This document shows, piece after piece, positions 7,356 to 20,249 of a stretch of 20,538 bases of DNA (the stretch's first letter is position 1; the number at the start of each line of letters is the position of its first letter). The position numbers and the translations under genes were made by a program. The notes under the pieces were generated by a model. That model was not told the origin of the DNA. It saw nothing but the letters and a program-made list of their open reading frames with translations, and did no database searches. The DNA lies in the IMG/VR virus record IMGVR_UViG_3300037246_000278, positions 1 through 20,538 of that record; one strand, 5' to 3'. The DNA comes from a virus.

Positions 7356-9755
7356 TTAAATAACTGGTTGATTTATAAAATTTGGATCATCTTCAAAGTT
7401 TTTTGGCATCTCATTGTTTTGACGTTGAGATATCATTTGACTTTGTTGACTACCAGCTATTCTTGTTCTGTTGTCTTTACGATTTTCAATTTCTTGTTCT
7501 CTCGTTGTTTCTCTTTGTGTTTTCATTTGCTCTAATTGCATCTGATAATTAAATTCTTCAGCCATTAATTCACGCTTTATTGCAGCCTCAGTTTGCATTC
7601 TTTGAATTTCAAATTGAGATTTAGCTTCTTCTAAATTAACTTTTTCCTGAGTTAAAGCTTGTTGTTTAAGTACTTCTGATTCAGCTGCTTTTTCTGCCGC
7701 TTGAGAATTAGCGTTAGCTTGTTGCTGATTCATTTCCATTTGCATTTGTCTATCATGCTGTATTTTACGTCTACGTTTTTGTTTTAACATTTGATTTGCT
7801 AATTTTAAATTACGTATTTGACGAACTTCAATTGCGTCTTCTAAATCAATACCACCGCTAGATAAAGCAACTTGAATGTTTTCTTCTAATCTTTGTCTTT
7901 CTTCTTCATCTGGTTCTAAATCTAAATAAATACCAAAGTCATGTAGATTAATTTCTTGTAAACCATCTAGTGTAGCAGTGTTAAAAGCTGTTATACTGTT
8001 TTTTAAAGCATTAGCAGTTAAAGGATAATCTAACATATCATTAACTTTTTTAGATATATTTTCACACATTCTTAGTGTTAAAAATAAACTAGCATTGTTT
8101 ATATGTTTAGTAGCAATATTAGATGCTTGAGCTGCAATTTTTTGTAATCCAACTAATGTATCTTTATCAGCTAAACTTCCATCTCTTGCTTCATTTAATC
8201 CGGTCACATCTCTTATCATTTGTAAATAATAATTATATGTTTGAATTAAATTTTGTACTTTAGCTTGACCTGAGCCACTAGCTAGTTCTTGTACTGGAAT
8301 TTTTCCTCTATTTATGTCACCATCTTGAGTAAGTGATCTACCAACTACAGAACCAGTTTGGAAATACATGTTTAAAGCTTCGGCTGGATTATAATTTGTA
8401 CCATTACCAAGATCAACCTCAGCTAAACCATCCATATCTAAAAACACACCATCTGGCACCATTCTAGCTATAACTTGTTGTAGTTTTAAATGAGTTATTT
8501 GAATCATATCAGCAAATCCAGTAATTCTACCTACTATAGAATTAATTCTTCCTTTATACATTCTAGGAGCACATAATGCGTAATTCATTTCTACCTTAGT
8601 AGTATCAGCAAATGGTCTTGTCATGTTTTCTGCCATTTCCCATTTAAGCATTATATCGGTACCTAATATTTTAACTCCTTTATACAACACCTCTATTGTT
8701 CTTCCAACTCTTTCAAACATTTCGCTTTCAGGTGGATTAAAAGTGTCTGGCTTTTCTATAGCTTTTACCAAACCTTGTTCAGTTTCTTTTATTTTAAATA
8801 CTTGATCACTATACGTTTTATATTCAAAATACATTACAGGTATAGTGTTTTGATCCCATGGACCATTACCATAACCATACATATAACTTCTATTACCTTG
8901 AGATTGTTGTATTTTTTCTAATGTAGCATTATCTAAAGCTGGAAATTGTTTAGCTATTTCAGGAAGAGTTACGGCTTTTAATTCACCTATATAATATAAA
9001 TCTTCAAAATTAGGATCTTCTGTGTAAGAATAAACTAACATTGCTGGATCAACATAATCTACAGTAATACCATTAGAAGTATTAAAATCAGTTTTAACTG
9101 CTCCTATTCCACAAGTAACTAAATCATAATTAACTCTACGTCTTGTTAAATCCCATTTATTATAATCTAATATTTGATTTATAACTTCCTCTTCAGCAAT
9201 TTCTACAGACTGTTTATAAGATAACTGCATATGAAGTTCTAATTCTTCTGGAGTTTGAGGCAGTTGCTCTTCTGGTATAGTAGTATTAAATATTTCAGTT
9301 CCTAATTGAGCAGTAATTTTCTTCATAGTATCTCTAGCAAAAATATCTTGTGCTAAACTCTCTGCGTAATTAGTTCTTTTTTGAACCGCTCCTGGATCTT
9401 GAGCGTAAGCATTTACATCATAATCTTTGTTAGATATACCATTAGCTAATATATCTACAAATTTACTAATTATAGGAACTGGTTTCCAGTCTAAATTAAG
9501 ATAAGATAAATCTCCGTTAATAGATAGTTCATCTTTATATTTTTGAGTAGGTTGTTCTCCTCTAGCATATAATCTTAATCTATTATAATTATTCCAAGTA
9601 GTCATATACCTGTTACCGTTAGTTCTACCTAACATAAACCATTCTTGTTCTATAGCTTGAGCAACTTGCGTACCATATTCAAGAGATGATTTTTCAGCGT
9701 CACTAACCACTTGGCTAGGGAAAATACTACTACCGTTACTGTATATACTTTTCAT
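7356..9755 (-). CDS. Portal protein
   Basis: A 799-aa protein immediately after the large terminase (no intergenic base). Portals form the dodecameric DNA channel at one capsid vertex and dock the terminase. The N-terminus has YNRLRLYARGEQPTQKYKD (57-75), then LNLDWKPVPIISKFVDILAN (86-105). In the second half RDVTGLNEARDGSLADKDTL precedes VGLQKIAAQASNIATKHI. These patterns match my memory of the large portals of crAss-like and related phages. The last 160 residues or so are a Gln/Glu/Met/Arg-rich coiled-coil-like tail (RRRKIQHDRQMQMEMNQQQA and onward), ending in NFINQPVI. At 799 aa it is longer than many podophage portals (about 500-725 aa). The start has no Shine-Dalgarno. Confidence 0.85.
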   Translation of the reverse strand: MKSIYSNGSSIFPSQVVSDAEKSSLEYGTQVAQAIEQEWFMLGRTNGNRYMTTWNNYNRLRLYARGEQPTQKYKDELSINGDLSYLNLDWKPVPIISKFVDILANGISNKDYDVNAYAQDPGAVQKRTNYAESLAQDIFARDTMKKITAQLGTEIFNTTIPEEQLPQTPEELELHMQLSYKQSVEIAEEEVINQILDYNKWDLTRRRVNYDLVTCGIGAVKTDFNTSNGITVDYVDPAMLVYSYTEDPNFEDLYYIGELKAVTLPEIAKQFPALDNATLEKIQQSQGNRSYMYGYGNGPWDQNTIPVMYFEYKTYSDQVFKIKETEQGLVKAIEKPDTFNPPESEMFERVGRTIEVLYKGVKILGTDIMLKWEMAENMTRPFADTTKVEMNYALCAPRMYKGRINSIVGRITGFADMIQITHLKLQQVIARMVPDGVFLDMDGLAEVDLGNGTNYNPAEALNMYFQTGSVVGRSLTQDGDINRGKIPVQELASGSGQAKVQNLIQTYNYYLQMIRDVTGLNEARDGSLADKDTLVGLQKIAAQASNIATKHINNASLFLTLRMCENISKKVNDMLDYPLTANALKNSITAFNTATLDGLQEINLHDFGIYLDLEPDEEERQRLEENIQVALSSGGIDLEDAIEVRQIRNLKLANQMLKQKRRRKIQHDRQMQMEMNQQQANANSQAAEKAAESEVLKQQALTQEKVNLEEAKSQFEIQRMQTEAAIKRELMAEEFNYQMQLEQMKTQRETTREQEIENRKDNRTRIAGSQQSQMISQRQNNEMPKNFEDDPNFINQPVI

Positions 9756-11972
9756 TTAATCTATAATTTTTGATAAGTGACCTTTGTTATCATATCTTTT
9801 AATTCCTAAATCATAATTTTGTCTTATTAATTTAGGAACAGGTCTATATTTATTTTTATTACAAGCCATAATAGCAAGTCCTGAACTAATAGAAGCATCA
9901 TGTGTAGTTCTATTGTTTATATTAAATTTAGCCCAATCTTCTAATGTTCTTTGAAAATATATATCTCCGTAGCTAAGATCTTCTAAAAGACCAACTCGCT
10001 CTTCAATATAACTTTCTATTGCTGCAGCGTGCGCTTGTTTTATATCTTCACTAGAATTAGGTATTCCACCTATTTCTCTCTCTGTTATTGATAATTTATT
10101 ATATATTTTATCCGGTCTATTCATTGCAAAACCTCTATATCCTCTTCTTTTAAAATGATATAATAATCTAGGTTTATTATTTTCCGCAAGTATTGGCATA
10201 CCATAAAATATACAAGCCATTAACACATCTTCAAAAAATATCTCTGCTGTTTGAGGTCTAGCTATGTATTCTAAAAAGAAATGATTAGGAGGAATATCTT
10301 CCATGCTAAACTTAGTTAAACCATGTAATGAACCATTAGATCCTCTACCATCTACTGTTCCAGATATATCATAACTATCACATCCAAAAGCTCCTAAAGT
10401 TTCATTACCAGGATATTTTTTACCTAATTTTTTTATAATATTGTTTTGTAATCTTCTAGGTGGAACCCATGAAATATAAAATCTTCCATTTTTATTTGGT
10501 ACAAACAATACTTCAGTATCTTTTATTCCACCAACCCATTGAAATGAACCTTGAGTTACTACATTAGTGTTTTTAATATCCGCGTTCCAATCAATTTGTT
10601 GATAAATCTTAGTTAAATTAAATAAAGAGTTTTTAGATTCATCTCTAAAAGCGTGTTTAGTTGTACGTGGGAATTGTCTATAAAATTCATTCAACGCATC
10701 TTGATCTTCACTTAATCCTTCTACTTCATTTTTCCAATAATCTAAAACTCCTATTTTAATTTTTTGACCATGGGGATCTTCATCGGGAGTTTTTGGTGTG
10801 TCAAATACAGGTATTCCATGAGAATTAATGTATCCTTCGTAATTCCATTCCATAGGTATGAACAAAGAATATAATCCTGAGCGAGTCTGTCCATTGGCGT
10901 TTCTTTTAGTAACATCTGAGCTTTCATATAGTTTTTTAAAATTTCCACCACCTTTGTCTAATGCGTTTGAAGTTGAACCCATCATGCATTTTCCAATAAT
11001 TCTAGATCCTAATCTTAAACATGTTTTAGTAACTCTCCAATTGTTTAAAATATTATTAGGTCTTTCCCATTTACCTGATTCATCATGTACTAATAATTTT
11101 AATTTTTCACCATCATAACTATTATCTCCAGTATTTTTCCAATCAATAGTTGTATCTAATCCTTGTAGTTCTTCAGCTACTTCTCCTGTTATTATTTTTC
11201 TTCTAGTGAATTTAGACGCGGGTACTCTATACGCTAATTCTGTTTTAGGTCGATCCATACCATCTTGAATCGGTTTAAAGAAAAAAGGATAGTTAACTGA
11301 AATAGGAACTACCTTATCTGTAAACATTGTTTTTGCATCGGGTCCAGTTTTAGATAATATTCCATATCTTGAGTCACTTGATATAGTAGCTAAGTTAACT
11401 ACTTCTCCTGATGCCATAAAAGAAAAACCAGATCTACGATTTTTAAGATAACACATACCGTAACATCTGTTATCTGCTTTACACGCTTCCCAAAATATAA
11501 AAAATAATCTATTTGCTTCTCTAAAATCCGGTGGTCCTACATCAATTTTAGACCATTGTAAATACATGTAATGTGTTCCTGTTAGATAAATAGGTTTTTT
11601 ATTATTATAAAACCAAAAACCTTCTTCACGTTTAATAAACTCTTCATCAATAAAATCATACCATTTTTCTTTGAAATCTTCTGGATATTTATCCCATTCA
11701 AAAACACTTTTAATTTTTTTAAGAACTTTAGGTAATGGAGTTCTTTGCCATTTATTATTTTCAAACTTATGAATATCCTTATATGGTTTAGGTAATGCAA
11801 TTTTTAAACCTTGTATTTCATAAACCTCTTTAATTTGTCCAGTTTTAGATATAACAACCATATCATGTTCTTCGTTATATCCATATTCCCACTTCTTGTA
11901 TTTATTATTTCTTGCAAGTATTTTAGGTTTTATGTAGTTTTTTAAAACTTTATATAAATCTTGACTATACAT
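9756..11972 (-). CDS. terL: Terminase large subunit (ATPase-nuclease packaging motor)
   Basis: A 738-aa protein with both terminase domains. ATPase: Walker A-like KNRRSGFSF (177-185), Walker B LLVHDE (293-298) with the catalytic Glu298, and a coupling-motif-like MMGSTSNA (330-337). Nuclease: first acidic motif FGCDSYD (Asp532), a central AENN (596-599), and a C-terminal HDASISSGLA (Asp692). These fit the RNase H-like nuclease of large terminases. It drives DNA into the prohead and cuts the concatemer, acting at the portal vertex. The ATG overlaps the stop of the 92-aa gene by one base (TAATG). It is the only gene here with a good Shine-Dalgarno-like sequence, which lies inside the coding end of that gene. 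No small terminase is identifiable, though the 92-aa neighbour is a candidate by position. Confidence 0.92.
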   Translation of the reverse strand: MYSQDLYKVLKNYIKPKILARNNKYKKWEYGYNEEHDMVVISKTGQIKEVYEIQGLKIALPKPYKDIHKFENNKWQRTPLPKVLKKIKSVFEWDKYPEDFKEKWYDFIDEEFIKREEGFWFYNNKKPIYLTGTHYMYLQWSKIDVGPPDFREANRLFFIFWEACKADNRCYGMCYLKNRRSGFSFMASGEVVNLATISSDSRYGILSKTGPDAKTMFTDKVVPISVNYPFFFKPIQDGMDRPKTELAYRVPASKFTRRKIITGEVAEELQGLDTTIDWKNTGDNSYDGEKLKLLVHDESGKWERPNNILNNWRVTKTCLRLGSRIIGKCMMGSTSNALDKGGGNFKKLYESSDVTKRNANGQTRSGLYSLFIPMEWNYEGYINSHGIPVFDTPKTPDEDPHGQKIKIGVLDYWKNEVEGLSEDQDALNEFYRQFPRTTKHAFRDESKNSLFNLTKIYQQIDWNADIKNTNVVTQGSFQWVGGIKDTEVLFVPNKNGRFYISWVPPRRLQNNIIKKLGKKYPGNETLGAFGCDSYDISGTVDGRGSNGSLHGLTKFSMEDIPPNHFFLEYIARPQTAEIFFEDVLMACIFYGMPILAENNKPRLLYHFKRRGYRGFAMNRPDKIYNKLSITEREIGGIPNSSEDIKQAHAAAIESYIEERVGLLEDLSYGDIYFQRTLEDWAKFNINNRTTHDASISSGLAIMACNKNKYRPVPKLIRQNYDLGIKRYDNKGHLSKIID

Positions 11973-12250
11973 TACTTAGATCTCCTTTCTGCAAAACCTT
12001 TAAATTTAGATTCTTTTTTTTCTTCTACTTTAGGTTTATTTTCTAATAAATTTCTTTCTTCTTCAATTCTATTTAAAATTTCAAAAGCATCAAATATAGC
12101 TAATTTTTTTGTAGCTGCAGCGTTTTTAAGTCTGTCTGCGGAAATATCTGGTCCAAAATCTATAATTGGTTCTTTAGCAACTTTGATTAACTCTTTTACT
12201 GCTACTTGTCCAGCTTGGATTATATTCTTCTTCGTTTCCTTTATACTCAT
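11972..12250 (-). CDS. Small helical protein upstream of terL, unknown (possible small terminase)
   Basis: A 92-aa, highly charged and mostly helical protein. It contains KNIIQAGQVAVKELIKVAKE (8-27), then GPDISADRLKNAAATKKLAI and FDAFEILNRIEEERNLL. The C-terminus is Lys/Glu-rich and basic (KGFAERRSK). Similar small proteins sit next to terL in marine phages as I recall, without a defined function. Position makes a small terminase possible, but no helix-turn-helix is clear. Its first 77 bases overlap the end of the 208-aa gene in another frame, which is long for this compact genome. Its stop overlaps the terminase ATG by one base, suggesting coupled translation. Confidence 0.6.
   Translation of the reverse strand: MSIKETKKNIIQAGQVAVKELIKVAKEPIIDFGPDISADRLKNAAATKKLAIFDAFEILNRIEEERNLLENKPKVEEKKESKFKGFAERRSK
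11981..11988 (-). promoter_or_regulatory. Shine-Dalgarno-like site before the terminase start
   Basis: The transcript-sense AAAGGAGA, with AGGAG 9 bases before the ATG, is the only strong Shine-Dalgarno match I found before any start in the window. It is also the Glu-Arg-Arg coding end of the 92-aa gene, so it may be coincidental. Confidence 0.4.
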
Positions 12251-12800
12251 ATTTTATAACTATATCATTTGATTTCATACAATAAAGTCGTTCATTATTT
12301 ATAACAAACTCCCATTCAGCACCTGGTTTAAAACCTATCTTGTCACCTGGGGTGATTTTAGATGCTTCTAATGTATTATTACCTATTTTTAGTATACCAA
12401 TACATTTTTGTTCTTTACTAGTGCTTAGATTATTGTCGTCTTTTATAGGTTTTACAAAACATCTATCACCAAAAGATATCCATTTATTTTTATTTTTGTA
12501 TAAATAAACTTGATCTAATCCAACAAAATATAAGTTATCTTTAAAATAAGATTTACTATTATTTTGTTTACCTTTCATATTGTAGAATCTTCTAAAAATA
12601 TTTTGATGAACTACGATAATATCTCCTTTTTTTATTGGTGTATTAACACTAATTGGGGTTTCAATTACTTTAGCAAATCTATTAACAAACTTCCAAGATT
12701 CAATTTTAGTATTTAAAATTAAATTTTTTTCACCTATTTTTTTATCGTTAGCATATCTTTCCCCTAAAGGTTCTACAATAAACTCGTACAAGCTTTTCAT
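12174..12800 (-). CDS. Tandem GroES-like (Cpn10-like) protein, candidate double-domain co-chaperonin
   Basis: This 208-aa protein reads as two consecutive Cpn10-type barrels. First half (about 5-101): FIVEPLGERY matches the GroES start (x-x-RPLGDRV); ILNTKIESWKFVNRFAKVIE sits where the mobile loop and following strand lie; IKKGDIIVVHQNIFRR matches the V-x-x-GD-x-V-x-F region; LYFVGLDQVYLY matches the closing strand. Second half (about 107-186): ISFGDRCFVKPI, then CIGILKIGN, ITPGDKIGFKPGAEWEF and LYCMKSNDIVIKYE, again in GroES order. Neither half has the canonical GG-hydrophobic mobile-loop tripeptide. Tandem Cpn10 proteins are known in chloroplasts (Cpn20). The last 23 residues run past the barrel and overlap the 92-aa gene. 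Start overlaps the previous stop (TAATG). The co-chaperonin role is inference; it could instead be a structural protein using the same fold. Confidence 0.65.
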   Translation of the reverse strand: MKSLYEFIVEPLGERYANDKKIGEKNLILNTKIESWKFVNRFAKVIETPISVNTPIKKGDIIVVHQNIFRRFYNMKGKQNNSKSYFKDNLYFVGLDQVYLYKNKNKWISFGDRCFVKPIKDDNNLSTSKEQKCIGILKIGNNTLEASKITPGDKIGFKPGAEWEFVINNERLYCMKSNDIVIKYEYKGNEEEYNPSWTSSSKRVNQSC

Positions 12801-13039
12801 TAATATTCAAGATCGTACTCAATAGATATAGCCATGTTAGAATTAAATTTTTTCCATGGTAATACCTCGTTGTTTTTCTTTATATAAATGTTATATGAAT
12901 TATCATCTTCGTCAAGTAATATGTGTGATATTTCATGTCCACCATATACTTGTTGACCAACAGAATAATGCATAGCTTCATTTTTATAATCAGAACCAAT
13001 ACTGATTTTTCTTATTACATTATTCATTTTTAGCTTCAA
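12800..13039 (-). CDS. Conserved small phage protein, function unknown
   Basis: A 79-aa protein, mainly beta by appearance: NVIRKISIGSDYKNEAMHYS, then VGQQVYGGHEISHILLDEDD and WKKFNSNMAISIEYDLEY at the end. I recall very similar small proteins (IRKISIG-x-DY, then AMHY-x-VGQ) in marine phages, with no known role. The ATG at 13039 overlaps the previous gene by 20 bases. An in-frame ATG at 13027 (Met5) overlaps it by only 8 and gives an N-terminus closer to what I remember, so it is an equally good start. The stop overlaps the next ATG by one base. Confidence 0.65.
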   Translation of the reverse strand: MKLKMNNVIRKISIGSDYKNEAMHYSVGQQVYGGHEISHILLDEDDNSYNIYIKKNNEVLPWKKFNSNMAISIEYDLEY

Positions 13040-13319: not shown

Positions 13320-13775
13320 TTACTTTCTAAATAGTTTTGTTGCCTTTTCTGTTGTTCGTCCACCGAAATAGGCTAAAACGACCGCCATCATGACCTTCTC
13401 AAAAGTATCGTTCCAAGTACTATTAATATGAAATGGTACACTTTCTACACTATCAAGTATACCTGCAAAAGAAAATACAACAATACACCATACTAAAACT
13501 AATGGACGTACATTTTTAGACATCCAAGAATCCGACATAGAATCTGCTTTCCATCTTGAAGTTATAGATTCTATTTCTTTATTCTGTTGTTCGTATATTA
13601 ATTGTTGTAGTTTTATTTTATCATCTAATGACGCATCTGATTTAGTTATTTCAGCTATTGCTTCTTTTGGGGATGTTACACCTTGTAATACATTTCCTAA
13701 TGTAGGATTAATTACTGAAGCAGCACCAAATAAAAGTTGCCCCACCGTAGTGTCTTTAAATTGTTTCTTTGCCAT
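13320..13775 (-). CDS. Holin, 3TM / GTA-holin-like family
   Basis: A 151-aa protein. The N-terminal 85 residues are soluble and helical (DKIKLQQLIYEQQNKEIESI, near 52-71), followed by SRWKADSMSDSWMSKNVRP (73-91). The stretch PLVLVWCIVVFSFAGI (91-106) is a clear membrane segment, and VMMAVVLAYFGGR (128-140) is a second; GRTTEKATKLFRK closes the protein. The series E-x-x-S-R-W-x-A-D, S-D-S-W, N-x-R-P-L and a terminal F-G-G-R-T-x-E-K is the pattern of the 3TM holin family (PF11351, holin for gene-transfer release) as I know it. Holins make the inner-membrane lesion that triggers lysis. The gene directly follows the HExxH gene with no gap. The assignment is by motif and topology, not by search. 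Confidence 0.75.
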   Translation of the reverse strand: MAKKQFKDTTVGQLLFGAASVINPTLGNVLQGVTSPKEAIAEITKSDASLDDKIKLQQLIYEQQNKEIESITSRWKADSMSDSWMSKNVRPLVLVWCIVVFSFAGILDSVESVPFHINSTWNDTFEKVMMAVVLAYFGGRTTEKATKLFRK

Positions 13776-14276: not shown

Positions 14277-14687
14277 TTAGCTAACTAGAATATCTTTCCA
14301 ATATACTCTTAACGTTTCATCGTATTTAATATTTGGATCATCACTATCTAATGGTAATAAAGCGCTAGCTTTTACACCACCTGGATTAGCAGTAATTGCT
14401 CTGTTGACAGCTTTTTTCATTAAAGCTAAGTAATCAGTTGCAGTTGGGCGATTACCTACATCCGCAGGGGATGTTGCGCTTCCAGCACTTGTTCCACAAG
14501 TTACTCTACAAGATAAACCACCAGTTAATTGAAGAACTACGTTGAATTCTCCACCTGCACCAGTTTCTGCTTTTACGTTTAAAACGTTATCTACATTTAC
14601 TAAGTTATCACCATCTAATGATGGATCTGCACCAGCTGTTGCTAAGTTATATCCACCTACAATGTTAAAGTTTATAAATTTTGCCAT
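14277..14687 (-). CDS. Small beta-rich virion protein candidate
   Basis: A 136-aa protein: MAKFINFNIVGGYNLATAGA, then NLVNVDNVLNVKAETGAGG, FNVVLQLTGGLSCRVTCGTS and DYLALMKKAVNRAITANPGG, ending YDETLRVYWKDILVS. The alternation of short beta strands with Gly/Ala/Thr turns, and the opening MAKFINF followed by NLVNVDNV, resembles small proteins I know from marine phage structural regions. No function is known to me. The codons look richer in G/C than in nearby genes, as in the capsid gene, which suggests high expression. Decoration or other abundant virion protein is my inference. Confidence 0.6.
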   Translation of the reverse strand: MAKFINFNIVGGYNLATAGADPSLDGDNLVNVDNVLNVKAETGAGGEFNVVLQLTGGLSCRVTCGTSAGSATSPADVGNRPTATDYLALMKKAVNRAITANPGGVKASALLPLDSDDPNIKYDETLRVYWKDILVS

Positions 14688-14701
14688 GTTTTAATTTTTA
14701 A

Positions 14702-14725
14702 TGTTTATATGTTTATATGTTTATT
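14702..14725. repeat. Three copies of an 8-base A/T-rich unit in the 64-base gap
   Basis: The plus strand reads TGTTTATA, TGTTTATA, TGTTTATT in direct succession. It lies in the leader of the 136-aa gene, 15 bases before its ATG. The rest of the gap (14726-14751) is less A/T-rich and has only a weak 4-bp ACAG/CTGT stem. This is the only one of the four longest gaps without a good hairpin. Confidence 0.6.
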
Positions 14726-14751
14726 GGTTTTGTACAGCTCCATGACTGTTA

Positions 14752-15255
14752 TTAGTAATCATCAGAAGTTCCAGTTAATTTACTAACATCTGGAACACCT
14801 TGTTTTTTTAATGTTTTTTCTCTATCTGCAATTTCTTTTTCTGCTTTTCTTTCTTCCGCTAAAGATTCCATTGCGTTAGTATAAGTTGTATATGCATTAG
14901 GGTCAAGAAGTTTTTGAGCAAAACTACCTTTTTTAATTTTATTTAGAGAATCTTGTTTTTTCTTTTCTTCATCTAATGCTGTTTGCTCTTTTTCTCTTTT
15001 TCTTGCTACATTTTCCCCTGCTGCTTTAGCTATATCTATACCAGTTTCTAAAATAGATCTAGCAGTTTTATTAGCTGAATCTAACATTACTTTATTATCT
15101 TCTATTTTTGGACTAGTATAACTAGTACCTAAAGTAGGTAAATTAAACGAAGTAGGCATAGAGCTTTTATATACGTTTAAAGGAGATTTATTATTAAAAC
15201 CTACAGTAAATGGATTTTTCATAAAAGCACTACGAATAGTGTTTAAAAAATTCAT
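14752..15255 (-). CDS. Helical protein with an SPLN motif, unknown, possible minor virion protein
   Basis: A 167-aa protein. The N-terminus MNFLNTIRSAFMKNPFTVGF leads into NNKSPLNVYKSSMPTSFNLP (21-40), which holds the KSPLN motif shared with two other proteins of this cluster. Residues 60-115 are a charged helix (ILETGIDIAKAAGENVARKR, then EKEQTALDEEKKKQDSLNKI). The end is helical (NAMESLAEERKAEKEIADRE) with a disordered acidic tail. No signal peptide or catalytic motif is visible. The start overlaps the preceding stop by one base (TAATG). I do not recognise a named family. A role inside the virion is suggested only by neighbours and the shared motif. Confidence 0.6.
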   Translation of the reverse strand: MNFLNTIRSAFMKNPFTVGFNNKSPLNVYKSSMPTSFNLPTLGTSYTSPKIEDNKVMLDSANKTARSILETGIDIAKAAGENVARKREKEQTALDEEKKKQDSLNKIKKGSFAQKLLDPNAYTTYTNAMESLAEERKAEKEIADREKTLKKQGVPDVSKLTGTSDDY

Positions 15256-16052
15256 TAACTTGTTTTTTTAGATTTTTTACCGGTTCTTTTGTCTAATTTA
15301 TTTGCTTTCTCTAATAATGATACAACTTGTGGGTTTCCATAATCATAATCATCTCCTCTTTCAGCTGCACTTTCTTGTGAAATTTTTATAGCTTTTTGTC
15401 TTAATTTATGCGCTCTTGTATGTCTAAACATTGGTGAGCCAGAATTTCTTGGTATACCAGGCTTAAAATCACTCAAAGGTCTATTTTCCTCTTCTTCCAT
15501 TACTAAGTTTGTATTATCTATATATTTTTGTTTTATACCTCCAGCTTCGTTGAAATATGTTGCTTCCCCATCAGGATATATGGTGTCACTAAGGCTCGTG
15601 TAACCTTGCACATTATTTCTTAAATCGTTTAAGCCTTGAACTTGATTTATTAAACCTCCAACATTCTGAGGATTAGGCATTCTTGTCATTCCTGATCCAA
15701 ACGTTGATGGACGTGAATCTATTATATCTTGTTCTCGTTCCATACCCCTCATTATTAACCTATCAGTATTATGAGCTCTATTAGAATCTATTTTGTTTTT
15801 ATGTTTATTTGGTGTGTAATGACCACTTACATGTCTTGACATTCCATTATGTTCAGCTCCTGTAGAATTATGTCCATCATAGTTGTAACTACCATGTGCA
15901 TCATCAAACAAAGCTTCTGCATGCCCAGTATGGCCTTCAGCCATTTGTTTTTTACCTCTTTTTACATCTTCTTCTTCCCATGAATTTACCATGTGATGTT
16001 TTGAGTGTTTAGCGTTTCCGCTATATTCACCATAATGTCCTTTATGTCCCAT
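15255..16052 (-). CDS. Histidine-rich low-complexity protein, unknown
   Basis: A 265-aa protein with 14 histidines in the first 94 residues (3, 6, 16, 19, 20, 41, 44, 53, 61, 68, 74, 78, 84, 94), in a Gly/Asn/His/Tyr-rich, probably disordered segment. The rest is Asn/Gln/Gly-rich with helices, for example LINQVQGLNDLRNNVQGY. It includes SGSPMFRHTRAHKLRQKAIK (about 204-223), where SPMF is a loose variant of the SPLN motif, and ends in a basic KRTGKKSKKTS. The gene follows the 220-aa gene after 9 bases and overlaps the next by one base. Metal binding is possible from composition but unproven. No family is recognised. Confidence 0.6.
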   Translation of the reverse strand: MGHKGHYGEYSGNAKHSKHHMVNSWEEEDVKRGKKQMAEGHTGHAEALFDDAHGSYNYDGHNSTGAEHNGMSRHVSGHYTPNKHKNKIDSNRAHNTDRLIMRGMEREQDIIDSRPSTFGSGMTRMPNPQNVGGLINQVQGLNDLRNNVQGYTSLSDTIYPDGEATYFNEAGGIKQKYIDNTNLVMEEEENRPLSDFKPGIPRNSGSPMFRHTRAHKLRQKAIKISQESAAERGDDYDYGNPQVVSLLEKANKLDKRTGKKSKKTS

Positions 16053-16061
16053 ATTTTAATT

Positions 16062-16724
16062 TTAACTATTAGCGTGATATGCAGCCAGTGTTTTCATAGC
16101 ATCTTCTTTAGAGCTAAAACCACTTTTCCAAATACCACCTTTTTTATTGTTTAATATAACAAATTCGTTACCTCTTTTTTTGATACAACCACTTCCGCCT
16201 TCTGATTCAGCACATCCTTTACCACTCATTTCATTTAGTGGAGAAGCTATTCTAGATGTTGGGTTTTTTTTTTGGTCTTCTTTTTGATATCTAGACATAC
16301 CTTCACCATGCGGATGCTTATGATCTTCATCTGTGTAGTTATTATATCCGTTTAATGGAGAAGCGTGTCTACCAATTCCACCATTACCTTTTAAGTAATC
16401 TTTATGTGTTGCTGATTGATCTCCATGTGAAGAACCATCATGTCCGTGGTAACCTTTATCTGTTCCTTTATAATTAGCATAATCTGTATGCGTTGCAGAC
16501 TGGTCGCCTTTCATTGAACCGTCTCTATATGCTGGAGAATCTTGTTTTCTGTGCATATCATCTACGATAGGCATGTATTTAAGTTCATCTACACCATGAA
16601 TACCATATTGACTAGCATTGTTAACTGGAGATGATTTTCTGTCCAGACCCATTTTTTTCTCTTCTTTTTGTCTTTTTAAAGCCGAGTTCATTCTAGGTAA
16701 TGGATTGTTTTGTGAATATCCCAT
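16062..16724 (-). CDS. SPLN-repeat, histidine-rich protein with a small C-terminal domain, unknown
   Basis: A 220-aa protein with two parts. Residues 1-165 are low-complexity and polar, with 11 histidines and recurring motifs: SSPVN (31-35), DSPAY (62-66), ASPLN (121-125) and ASPLN (161-164 with Ala160). GDQSATH occurs twice (73-79 and 101-107). The C-terminal 45 residues look folded: GCIKKRGNEFVILNNKKGG (179-197), then IWKSGFSSKEDAMKTLAAYH. This beta-beta-beta-alpha unit recurs in small marine phage proteins as I recall; its function is unknown. The 26-base leader is A/T-only. The disordered, motif-bearing front attached to a small domain suggests a scaffold-binding or packaged protein, but that is inference. 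Confidence 0.6.
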   Translation of the reverse strand: MGYSQNNPLPRMNSALKRQKEEKKMGLDRKSSPVNNASQYGIHGVDELKYMPIVDDMHRKQDSPAYRDGSMKGDQSATHTDYANYKGTDKGYHGHDGSSHGDQSATHKDYLKGNGGIGRHASPLNGYNNYTDEDHKHPHGEGMSRYQKEDQKKNPTSRIASPLNEMSGKGCAESEGGSGCIKKRGNEFVILNNKKGGIWKSGFSSKEDAMKTLAAYHANS

Positions 16725-18024: not shown

Positions 18025-18467
18025 CTTTCTTTATCTTTATTTACATTATATATAGATGTTTGTAGCACTTTATCTATATAAGTATTACCTTTCATTATTT
18101 TATTTCTTCTTGTGCTTGTAGGTATATCTTCTTCACCTAACATTATTCGGTAAATTCTTTGTATTAATTGTTTACCTTTAAAAGAAACTTTGTATATGTT
18201 ATATTTTTGAGTTGTTCTATTTCTATGTCGCCATACCACAACCCAATCATTTTGTATTAATCTATTCCATCTACGGTTATCCCAACTATAAGAATACGTA
18301 CCCATTTTAAAATCATTAATATTAAATAAATTTATACAATCTAGATAAATTAATAACTCTAAATCCGCATCATTTAAATCGTTGTTTTTTGAAGCCCATC
18401 GGCGTATTATACGATAATGTTTTAACAGGTTTAAATCTTTAAGATCTCCTGCTTCTAACTTTTTCAT
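18021..18467 (-). CDS. Winged-helix-like small protein, possible DNA-binding regulator
   Basis: A 148-aa, basic protein. Residues 10-40 are helical (KDLNLLKHYRIIRRWASKNN), then DLNDADLELLIYLDCINLFN (36-55 approximately). Next come YSWDNRRWNRLIQNDWVVVW and RHRNRTTQKYNIYKVSFKGK, an order of helices followed by a beta wing and a terminal helix that resembles MarR-type winged-helix proteins. The C-terminus GEEDIPTSTRRNKIMKGNTY is basic. I recall close relatives in marine phages without a demonstrated function. It is translationally coupled to groES upstream and to the 178-aa gene downstream (4-base ATGA overlaps on both sides). A transcription regulator is possible; a DNA-packaging factor is an alternative. 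Confidence 0.6.
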   Translation of the reverse strand: MKKLEAGDLKDLNLLKHYRIIRRWASKNNDLNDADLELLIYLDCINLFNINDFKMGTYSYSWDNRRWNRLIQNDWVVVWRHRNRTTQKYNIYKVSFKGKQLIQRIYRIMLGEEDIPTSTRRNKIMKGNTYIDKVLQTSIYNVNKDKER

Positions 18468-18724
18468 AAAACAACGACCACATCCTGTAACTTAATTACT
18501 TGGTATGTGATATTCTCTAATTCCATATAATGACCATTGTGACGATCATAAAATATAATATCTTTTTCTTTTACACCTTCTACTTCGTGTCCCACGGAAA
18601 TTACTTCAGCTTCAATATATCTTATATCAGTTCTATCGTTTTTACTTAAAAGTAATCCTCCTTGAGACTCTGTTATATTTTCCTCAATTTTTTTTATTAT
18701 AAGATATCTACCTACTGCTTTCAT
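18464..18724 (-). CDS. groES: Co-chaperonin GroES (Cpn10), phage-encoded
   Basis: An 86-aa protein (bacterial GroES is usually 94-97 aa). The N-terminal strand GRYLIIKKI replaces the usual RPL-x-DR. The mobile loop ENITESQGGLLLSKNDRTD (15-33) keeps the GG-hydrophobic tripeptide: Gly22-Gly23-Leu24-Leu25-Leu26 corresponds to the IVL motif of E. coli that inserts into GroEL. Then AEVISVGHEVEG and VKEKDIIFYDRHNGHYMELE form the barrel, and YQVIKLQDVVVVL the closing strand. It caps the GroEL ring as a heptamer during folding. The first 17 bases overlap the end of groEL, so the two are co-translated. It follows groEL, the reverse of the bacterial order. The shorter length mostly reflects a trimmed N-terminus and trimmed loops. 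Confidence 0.85.
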   Translation of the reverse strand: MKAVGRYLIIKKIEENITESQGGLLLSKNDRTDIRYIEAEVISVGHEVEGVKEKDIIFYDRHNGHYMELENITYQVIKLQDVVVVL

Positions 18725-20249
18725 TTGTTCTAATATTATTAATTACACAATCAGTAGATAAAATAGTAACTGCTACAGAAGCCGCGTTGGTTAAAGCGCT
18801 TTTTGTTACCAGTAATGGATCAATAATACCTTCCTTAACCATATGTACCATATCTCCTGTAACCACGTTTAAACCTTTTCCTTCTGTTTCTAGTTCTATT
18901 GGATCTATACCAGCATTAACTAATATAGTGTTATAAGGAGCTTTTATAGCGTTGTATAAAATGTTTTCGCCTATATCACTTTGGTCTAATGTTTTTGAAG
19001 CGTTAAGTAAAGCAACACCACCACCAGCTACAACTCCTTCTTTAATAGCAGCTTTTGTAGCACAGATAGCATCTTCAATTCTATCTTGTTTCTCTTTAAG
19101 TTCAATATCAGAATTAGCACCTACTTTAACAATAGCTACTTTTGCGCTTAATCTAGCTAATCTAAGTTCTAATCCTATAACTTGATGAGGTTTTAATTTT
19201 TTAGTTAAATCTTTCTTAACTTTTTTAATAATTTTTTCAACTTCTTTTGAAATATCTTCAACTTGTATTATAGTTTGATCATTATTAGAAGTTGTTTTTA
19301 AGCATGTACCTAAATAATCTATTTCTATAGTATTTAAATCATCTCCTAAATCTTCGTTTATTATTTGAGAATTTGTTAACAATGATAAATCTTCTAGTAT
19401 TTCTTTTCTTCTTAATCCAAAAGCTGGAGGATCAACTACATTTACTTTTATATTACCTTTCATTTTATTCATAACAAGAGCAGATAAAACCGCAGGTTCT
19501 ACTTGTCCTATAATAAATAAAGCTTTATTGTTTTTTATAACATATTCTAACACGCTTTGAATTTGTCTAATAGAATCAATTTTAGAATCTACTATCATAA
19601 CTAGTGGGTTATGTAATTCACAAGTACCTTTATCTTTATTTGTTATAAAATTTTGATTTAACAAACCTTTATCATACTCTACACCTTCTACTGTTTCAAC
19701 TTTAGTTTCACCCTCAGCAGATGGTTCCATCATTACTACACCTGTATTACCTACTTCAGTAAAAGCTTGGGCAATTAAATTACCTAACTCTGAATCATTA
19801 TTAGTAGATATAGTAGCTATTTGTTCAATTTTATTTTTTACTGGAACTGACTTAGATGTTATATAACTTATAACTTTATCAACACCTTTTAGTATTCCAT
19901 TTTTAATATCTCTTACGTTAGTTTTATCTAACTTTTTATAGGCTTCATGTAATATAGCGTGTGCTAATACAGTTGCTGTTGTAGTTCCGTCTCCAGCTTC
20001 TTTAACTGTTTTACGTGCTGCTTCTTTTAATAAAGTTGCTCCTATGTTTTCTACGGGATCTAAAAGTACTATAGAATCTGCTACTGTTACACCGTCTTTG
20101 GTTATAACTGGATTACCATGTGCATCTTCTAAAATTACACATTTACCGCTAGCTCCTAATGTAGAGCTAACAGCATTTGTGAGTTTTTCTATACCTTTAA
20201 AAACCTGTTGTCTGGCTTCAATGCCAAAATTCAGATTTTTTACAATCAT
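18708..20249 (-). CDS. groEL: Chaperonin GroEL (Cpn60), phage-encoded
   Basis: A 513-aa group I chaperonin (about 540-548 aa in bacteria). Conserved: Asp52 in KDGV (51-54), GDGTTT (86-91, with catalytic Asp87 at the E. coli position), VVAGGGVALL (407-416), IEDAICATKAAIKEG with Asp393 (equivalent to E. coli Asp398), and IIDPLLVTKSALTNAASVAV with Asp477. Apical domain: KMKGNIKVNVVDPPAFGLRR. Differences: the nucleotide loop reads LGASGK (31-36) rather than LGPKGR. By eye, E. coli groove residues Tyr199, Tyr203 and Leu234 are Leu196, Asn200 and Gln231. The C-terminus ends INNIRTNESSR with no GGM repeats. It folds proteins in a tetradecameric ring with ATP. The leader is (TTTAA)4. It is complete and likely functional, presumably adapted to phage clients. 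Confidence 0.93.
   Translation of the reverse strand: MIVKNLNFGIEARQQVFKGIEKLTNAVSSTLGASGKCVILEDAHGNPVITKDGVTVADSIVLLDPVENIGATLLKEAARKTVKEAGDGTTTATVLAHAILHEAYKKLDKTNVRDIKNGILKGVDKVISYITSKSVPVKNKIEQIATISTNNDSELGNLIAQAFTEVGNTGVVMMEPSAEGETKVETVEGVEYDKGLLNQNFITNKDKGTCELHNPLVMIVDSKIDSIRQIQSVLEYVIKNNKALFIIGQVEPAVLSALVMNKMKGNIKVNVVDPPAFGLRRKEILEDLSLLTNSQIINEDLGDDLNTIEIDYLGTCLKTTSNNDQTIIQVEDISKEVEKIIKKVKKDLTKKLKPHQVIGLELRLARLSAKVAIVKVGANSDIELKEKQDRIEDAICATKAAIKEGVVAGGGVALLNASKTLDQSDIGENILYNAIKAPYNTILVNAGIDPIELETEGKGLNVVTGDMVHMVKEGIIDPLLVTKSALTNAASVAVTILSTDCVINNIRTNESSR

Follow-up and report, generated by a model that had tools for sequence, protein, structure and literature searches.

Bacteriophage T4 encodes gp31, a single-domain co-chaperonin of the Cpn10 fold that works with the host GroEL. 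Phage EL carries a Cpn60-type protein, gp146, which according to the available portion of PMC7185714 has no functional interaction with GroES.

Plastid Cpn20, as found in Arabidopsis, Chlamydomonas and Plasmodium, consists of two Cpn10 domains joined head to tail, and how lids built from an even number of such domains fit a seven-fold chaperonin has been debated for the plant and apicomplexan proteins. In the accessible text of the respective sources, plant Cpn20 is described as coexisting with single-domain Cpn10 (PMC5780408), apicomplexan Cpn20 as keeping both mobile loops (PMC3542282), and lids made of tandem chains only as working both in plastids and with GroEL (PMC3542282, PMC5780408). 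For Arabidopsis thaliana, the available part of PMC4242682 reports that Cpn10(1) works only as a hetero-oligomer with Cpn20, that a Cpn20 mutated in its N-domain loop is inactive alone and active together with Cpn10(1), and that an assembly of three Cpn20 and one Cpn10 is thought by the authors to dominate in vivo; it also cites a need for four or more functional subunits among the seven of GroES if GroEL is to be bound.

The window analysed here, an entire IMG/VR virus record of 20,538 bases, encodes a GroEL, a single-domain GroES and a further protein of 208 aa with two predicted Cpn10 domains in one chain. Like gp31, the latter would be a phage-encoded co-chaperonin of the Cpn10 fold, yet with two domains instead of one, and unlike T4 the window phage has a GroEL and a GroES of its own. 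Its chaperonin is a closer relative of GroEL than that of phage EL, and is accompanied by two putative co-chaperonins. Plastid Cpn20, likewise of two head-to-tail domains and in plants likewise accompanied by a single-domain Cpn10, is the best full-length structural match; the phage protein differs from it in its packaging context and, from the apicomplexan form, in the loss of the half-2 loop. The features of the window are as follows.

12174..12800, minus strand: tandem Cpn10 gene, 208 aa (PHROG 13932 at E 1e-22, AF2 model, VIA)
12489..12800, minus strand: half 1, residues 1-104, predicted Cpn10 barrel (AF2 of the half alone, VIA)
12678..12767, minus strand: putative half-1 mobile-loop region, residues 12-41, with the tripeptide L27-I28-L29 at 12714-12722
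12249..12488, minus strand: half 2, residues 105-184, predicted Cpn10 barrel (VIA, hhalign)
12402..12443, minus strand: shortened half-2 loop, residues 120-133, no tripeptide (alignment)
12177..12248, minus strand: C-terminal tail of the tandem (residues 185-208), sharing its bases with the first part of the 92-aa ORF
12800..13039, minus strand: small conserved gene (79 aa when read from the listed TTG), directly upstream of the tandem (alignment)
11972..12250, minus strand: 92-aa ORF, candidate small-terminase-like part (alignment with TerL N-termini)
9756..11972, minus strand: terminase large subunit, terL (PHROG 6681, E 6.9e-163)
7356..9755, minus strand: portal protein (PHROG 6547, E 3.1e-142)
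18464..18724, minus strand: single-domain GroES, 86 aa, with a canonical GGLLL loop (Pfam Cpn10, 33.6 bits against a cut-off of 21.1)
18708..20249, minus strand: phage GroEL, 513 aa (Pfam Cpn60_TCP1, 191.7 bits)

Genomic neighbourhood and spread of the tandem gene

The plus-strand frame at 12174-12800 is full of stops, and the coding strand is the minus strand. Comparison of the window with a relative (L001) over 182 codons gave a dN/dS of about 0.15 (dN 0.08, dS 0.55), which points to purifying selection on the tandem gene. Residues 1-182 matched positions 1-197 of PHROG 13932 ('co-chaperonin GroES', a 200-aa model) at E 1e-22, and a search of viral contigs returned 560 related stretches; given these three results, the ORF is more than a chance ORF. 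To Pfam Cpn10 (PF00166) the window protein showed a weak match in its second half, scoring 15.7 bits against a cut-off of 21.1, which is passed by half 2 of phi38:1, Calle_1, G003 and four Pachyviridae phages. Across Pfam, NCBIfam and PDB profile searches, Cpn10 was seen in half 2 only (E 0.015-0.06), with the best NCBIfam model covering residues 108-185, and no Cpn20 was among the 8 PDB sequences found by the family profile at E up to 1.

By tblastn, relatives of the tandem were found in 77 of 50,697 phage records, comprising Flavobacterium, Cellulophaga and Maribacter phages and one Manatee Spring phage. More divergent tandems, missed by tblastn, adjoin terL in the Pachyviridae phi18:3, phi19:3, phi46:3 and phi13:2. 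When five queries were run against viral contigs, three gave 540-583 stretches each (at least that number for one of them) and the other two 4 and 20. Genome bins contributed 28 tandem loci, with Bacteroidota names on 16 bins; the non-Bacteroidota bins, archaea included, we take for binning noise. One scaffold labelled as an Aenigmatarchaeota chromosome (L296, CP070801.1) carries a fragment of one of these phages beside other genes and 400 N, and is probably chimeric. The cultured phages with a PHROG 13932 tandem infect flavobacteria.

Existing labels for these proteins in Cellulophaga, Flavobacterium and Maribacter phages are GroES/cpn10 or hypothetical. The statement in the first-pass annotation that single-chain tandem Cpn10s are not established for phages therefore has to be narrowed, since the family already exists as PHROG 13932 and is annotated as GroES/cpn10; what stands is that a two-domain make-up of phage GroES is unannounced in the titles and abstract beginnings searched, a body of literature in which subscription journals are thinly covered and an earlier mention is possible. 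The double Cpn10 is thus an architecture unannounced for phages in that literature, yet already a named protein family. Homologs of GroEL and GroES are noted in the available text on Panino (PMC11590407), and PMC7077304 contains none of the chaperonin words that were looked for.

On a common strand, the end of groES and the start of the tandem lie 5.66 kb apart, a distance that had been noted as 5.7 kb. The window GroEL has GDGTTT and RIEDA segments, which we take to hold the catalytic aspartates; they line up with the equivalent segments of 9rwr, the solved chaperonin that matches it best. The protein has no GGM-type C-terminal tail and ends in NNIRTNESSR. Downstream of the tandem follow the 92-aa ORF (with a 77-nt overlap), terL, the portal gene and virion genes. 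The 92-aa ORF corresponds in alignment to an N-terminal domain that elemo, phi38:1 and G003 carry as part of a longer TerL, being separate in the window and fused there; the tandem itself was considered as a small terminase and rejected on account of this neighbour. Close upstream, at 13320-13775, lies a holin-family protein (PHROG 3427, E 3.5e-18), and four ORFs at 14277-16724 had no PHROG match at E 0.01 or better.

We examined gene order in 292 loci, a set that includes contigs fetched twice and related phages, so that the loci are not independent. A terL gene lay downstream of the tandem on the same strand in 242/242 loci with enough flank, and a portal gene in all 162 that were long enough; PHROG 13932 tandems of phi18:3, phi38:1, the elemo phages and Panino occupy the same place beside terL. 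A relative of the 79-aa ORF, with its IRKISIG...MHY...WK motifs, stood directly upstream in 281/281 loci with at least 300 nt of upstream sequence, which makes it a possible partner of the tandem. It belongs to no named family, the Pfam MjAgo_N-like match of the window copy being sub-threshold (18.8 against 27 bits), and four of its relatives gave weak matches to PHROGs of unknown function; in phi18:3 the gene upstream of the tandem looks, by eye, unrelated to it. Sixty loci reached groEL or groES. Of these, 45 had groEL upstream on the strand of the tandem and 8 had it on the opposite one; for groES the numbers were 52 and 8. Both genes are on the opposite strand from the tandem in elemo. In phi38:1, a circular record, they are likewise on the other strand, separated from the tandem by 24 kb or more; in G003 a single GroES with a GGLIII loop is found among virion genes (L309:13416-13682). 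GroEL and groES thus change place between genomes, and the tandem stays with terL.

Predicted fold of the two halves

An AlphaFold model of the full tandem was built from a 94-sequence alignment. Of 264 loci with a phmmer hit, the window's own entry (L084) was excluded, and a further 11 did not fit the start pattern; 95 representatives below 88% identity were then used without L050, L058 and L059 and with L161 in place of L083, and L164 (one of the 11 start-pattern failures) and the window were added. The full-chain model reached a mean pLDDT of 87.4 and a pTM of 0.81, with lower confidence in the half-1 loop region (residues 12-41) and a pLDDT of 55 in the last block, which corresponds to the C-terminal tail. 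In Foldseek, the best solved structure for the full chain was 7ekq_R (E 2.2e-5), after which came a second 7ekq chain and chains of GroES. 7ekq_R is named 'Cpn20 co-chaperonin subunit' in the sequence library, and the entry is titled CrClpP-S2c, which we take to be the Chlamydomonas Clp protease with a co-chaperonin on top. VIA aligned 160 residues of the model (within residues 1-185) to 7ekq_R with Z 10.2 and rmsd 4.0, the two Cpn10 domains of the chain being arranged as in Cpn20.

Half 2 was recognised by both structure and sequence, with Z 8.5 in VIA to the GroES chain 8wuc_a (model residues 106-185) and an hhalign E-value of 1.2e-5 (probability 81) against a phage GroES profile. Sequence-only routes were weak for half 1: hhalign gave E 0.0066 (probability 5.7) against GroES and E 0.01 (probability 4.0) against half 2, both near noise. 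Half 1 was for this reason folded alone, giving a pLDDT of 87.8. The first 15 VIA matches of this model were all Cpn10, GroES, gp31 or Cpn20 structures with Z from 8.0 to 6.3, values near 8 being middling by the tool's own note; the best was 1wnr_C (Z 8.0, rmsd 2.6, 70 aligned), and the matches after the fifteenth were oxidoreductases at Z 5.2 and below, presumably with the GroES-like fold. Foldseek with half 1 alone was weaker (best E 3.9e-3). T4 gp31 (1g31) matched half 1 with Z 7.2 and half 2 with Z 6.2. Our reading is that each half is a Cpn10 barrel; for half 1 the assignment comes from predicted structure only, since its profile-level similarity to GroES is nearly absent. The claim of a second, double-domain GroES-like protein beside a phage GroEL and GroES is thereby borne out at the level of predicted structure, with Cpn10s returned for each half and Cpn20 for the whole chain, and the six GroES landmark motifs on which it had been based are all present verbatim in the 208-aa product.

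Pairing of terminal strands holds neighbouring GroES subunits together. In the model, the last strand of half 1 (98-103) runs through a short turn into the first strand of half 2 (106-109), joining the halves like adjoining GroES subunits, which suggests that the two are ring neighbours.

Mobile loops and companion chaperonins

All three positions of the half-1 tripeptide L27-I28-L29, which is followed by N30, are hydrophobic in 90 of the 94 aligned sequences, and at least two are in 94/94. The elemo phages have GLILN at the same position and phi18:3 has SGLEL; as these are close to canonical G-hydrophobic loops, we take residues 27-29 for a mobile-loop tripeptide whose glycines were lost in the window lineage. 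The corresponding stretch of half 2 (columns of residues 119-134) measures 16-18 aa in 91 of the 94 sequences, and the window lineage has no hydrophobic tripeptide in this half. Three phi38:1-like sequences have 26-27 aa there, two of them with GSIIV, and the half-2 loop of phi18:3 reads SLIYIP. Judging from these long half-2 loops in the phi38:1-like members and phi18:3, the ancestral tandem probably had two loops, of which the window lineage kept one. The first-pass annotation had the GG-hydrophobic tripeptide gone from both halves, which is literally true of the GG; half 1 nonetheless keeps its hydrophobic tripeptide and its loop, and the loss in half 2 is confined to some lineages. Besides the shortened half-2 loop, the C-terminal tail sets the window lineage apart from other PHROG 13932 members, being absent from the alignment rows of the elemo, Manatee Spring, Panino and Cellulophaga relatives.

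Co-occurrence was tallied over 30 tandem-bearing records of at least 50 kb, with phi38:1 counted once by leaving out its duplicate record W06. Of the 30, 22 came from viral or phage collections and eight were contigs of bacterial or archaeal bins, among which the contig of L301 was assigned by its length. Size was a stand-in for completeness, one member (elemoF) is titled 'partial genome', and some records are near-identical. A single-domain GroES was present in 28/30 and GroEL in 23/30, counts that include related phages and are not independent. In the viral and phage collections the numbers were 22/22 for GroES and 17/22 for GroEL, and among the bin contigs 6/8 for each; in one bin record (L308), GroES was missed by Pfam and found by the phage GroES profile. 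GroES was not found in two tandem-bearing records, namely a 56,458-base contig (L302), from whose bin a 3,430-base contig carries a GroEL-GroES pair, and the archaeal-labelled scaffold L296 with its short phage-like piece; since each miss has a plain reason, they leave our estimate for the mixed lid discussed below unchanged. Outside the tally, 11 records shorter than 50 kb had GroEL in 8 and GroES in 8. In Gundel_1, whose TerL shows 31% identity, tandem, GroES and GroEL are all absent by profiles.

Five records (G003, phi18:3, phi19:3, phi46:3 and phi13:2) keep the tandem and GroES with no GroEL found. The 123 CDS annotated in phi18:3 include no GroEL, and the window GroEL as query, run without a positive control, found none in three of the five. 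All five belong to lineages with a long half-2 loop, as aligned for G003 and two of the four Pachyviridae. Phi38:1 combines GroEL with a long, atypical half-2 loop, and Panino combines it with a short one; in these alignments, the association of a long half-2 loop with a missing GroEL appears as a correlation over few lineages. Because GroES mostly adjoins GroEL, the co-occurrence of the two with the tandem is inseparable in most genomes. The presence of GroES fits a lid built from tandem and GroES together.

Possible composition of the lid

The protein is very probably a co-chaperonin of some kind. From its predicted double Cpn10 fold, the loop pattern, the synteny and the co-occurrence with GroES, we infer how it might be placed in a ring, bind GroEL and be timed, and which clients it might serve. 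The reading we prefer, and to which we give an even chance, is that of a phage-made tandem co-chaperonin working like plastid Cpn20, most likely in a mixed lid with GroES. The tight hairpin between the barrels would make them neighbours in the lid ring, and, as two-domain chains alone cannot fill seven positions, the lid would consist of three tandems and one single-domain GroES (2+2+2+1 = 7). With one working loop per tandem, in half 1, a lid of the window lineage would present 3 + 1 = 4 loops, exactly the reported minimum. Such a ring would cap the phage GroEL or, in relatives without groEL, the host GroEL. The position of the gene among packaging and head genes suggests that the clients of the altered lid are probably proteins of the head, the portal or the terminase, folded at a late stage of infection. 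We do not file the protein as a Cpn20, since its half-2 loop is short and without the tripeptide; it is Cpn20-like by convergence or unknown descent.

A more far-reaching version, offered tentatively, has phages of flavobacteria and their relatives arriving independently at the plants' Cpn10 plus Cpn20 solution with an obligate lid of three tandems and one GroES. The half-2 loop would have mostly decayed beside the phage's own GroEL, leaving four loops, and both loops would be kept where GroEL is missing, to retool the GroEL of the host; the lid subunit would be wired into the packaging operon, the cage changing as the capsid genes switch on.

A GroES partner is not strictly required, since tandem-only lids work elsewhere, and the tandem could instead form its own ring on GroEL (four chains, with one of the eight domains left out, or some other number of chains). 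GroES would then have a task of its own, in the manner of T4 gp31, which acts alongside the GroES of the host. Cpn20 homo-oligomers that work with GroEL and functional concatemers of 6-8 domains, both described in the accessible text of PMC5780408 and PMC3542282, would be precedents for such a ring, and the tandem, which stays with terL, does lie apart from groES in the genome. The retention of GroES in 28/30 large records, the five without GroEL among them, argues for a shared lid instead, and in the window lineage a four-chain ring minus one domain would offer either three loops or just the four that are reported as the minimum. We consider a tandem-only ring unlikely.

The division into one half with a loop and one without would also suit a homo-heptamer in two tiers, with seven half-1 barrels as a lid with seven loops and seven half-2 barrels as an additional tier that would give the dome more room for large capsid subunits. 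There is a precedent in gp31, which enlarges the chaperonin cage for T4. The alignment of both domains with the Cpn20 chain 7ekq_R (Z 10.2) suggests ring neighbours, not stacked tiers, and the long half-2 loops of phi18:3, G003 and phi38:1 indicate that half 2 probably bound the chaperonin ancestrally, which makes the two-tier arrangement improbable.

The fixed place between the small upstream gene (281/281) and the terminase region (242/242 loci) could further be read as a Cpn10 fold recruited away from chaperonins, as a ring adaptor or assembly factor for portal or terminase or as a minor virion component; 7ekq, which holds Cpn20 chains on what is presumably a Clp protease, would show that tandem rings can sit on other machines. 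We regard this as very improbable. The half-1 loop tripeptide is kept, the candidate small-terminase-like part is a separate ORF, the adjacent one of 92 aa, and profiles see neither the tandem nor GroES nor GroEL in Gundel_1, whose TerL is related. Of the 123 CDS in the record of phi18:3, a relative of the window phage, 12 carry a note of MS/MS detection, with neither the tandem nor GroES among them; at the level of this record annotation, a virion role is disfavoured, as is the turn to a structural role that had been suggested for this protein. An annotation or assembly artefact, whether a chance ORF or two fused genes, has next to no chance of being right and is refuted, in spite of the window tandem falling below the Pfam cut-off, by the similar length and gene order of the tandem across hundreds of contigs and a number of cultured phages, by the dN/dS of about 0.15 and by the single continuous, confident model.

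Returning to the mixed lid, the cultured phages offer a GroEL and a GroES beside a tandem that has naturally lost one of its loops, together with two-loop and GroEL-less relatives, and this natural set makes stoichiometry and minimum loop number directly testable. The findings point to a possible chaperonin lid tied to head assembly in widespread aquatic phages. The available text of PMC13288928, whose tables list methylated proteins only and in which no mention of the tandem was found, reports the phi38:1 GroEL as detected by mass spectrometry in infected cells and, methylated, in free-virion preparations. Among BFVD models, a viral protein of 304 aa (A0A516L046) is a structural match to the tandem, possibly as a fusion with a neighbour or with a third domain.
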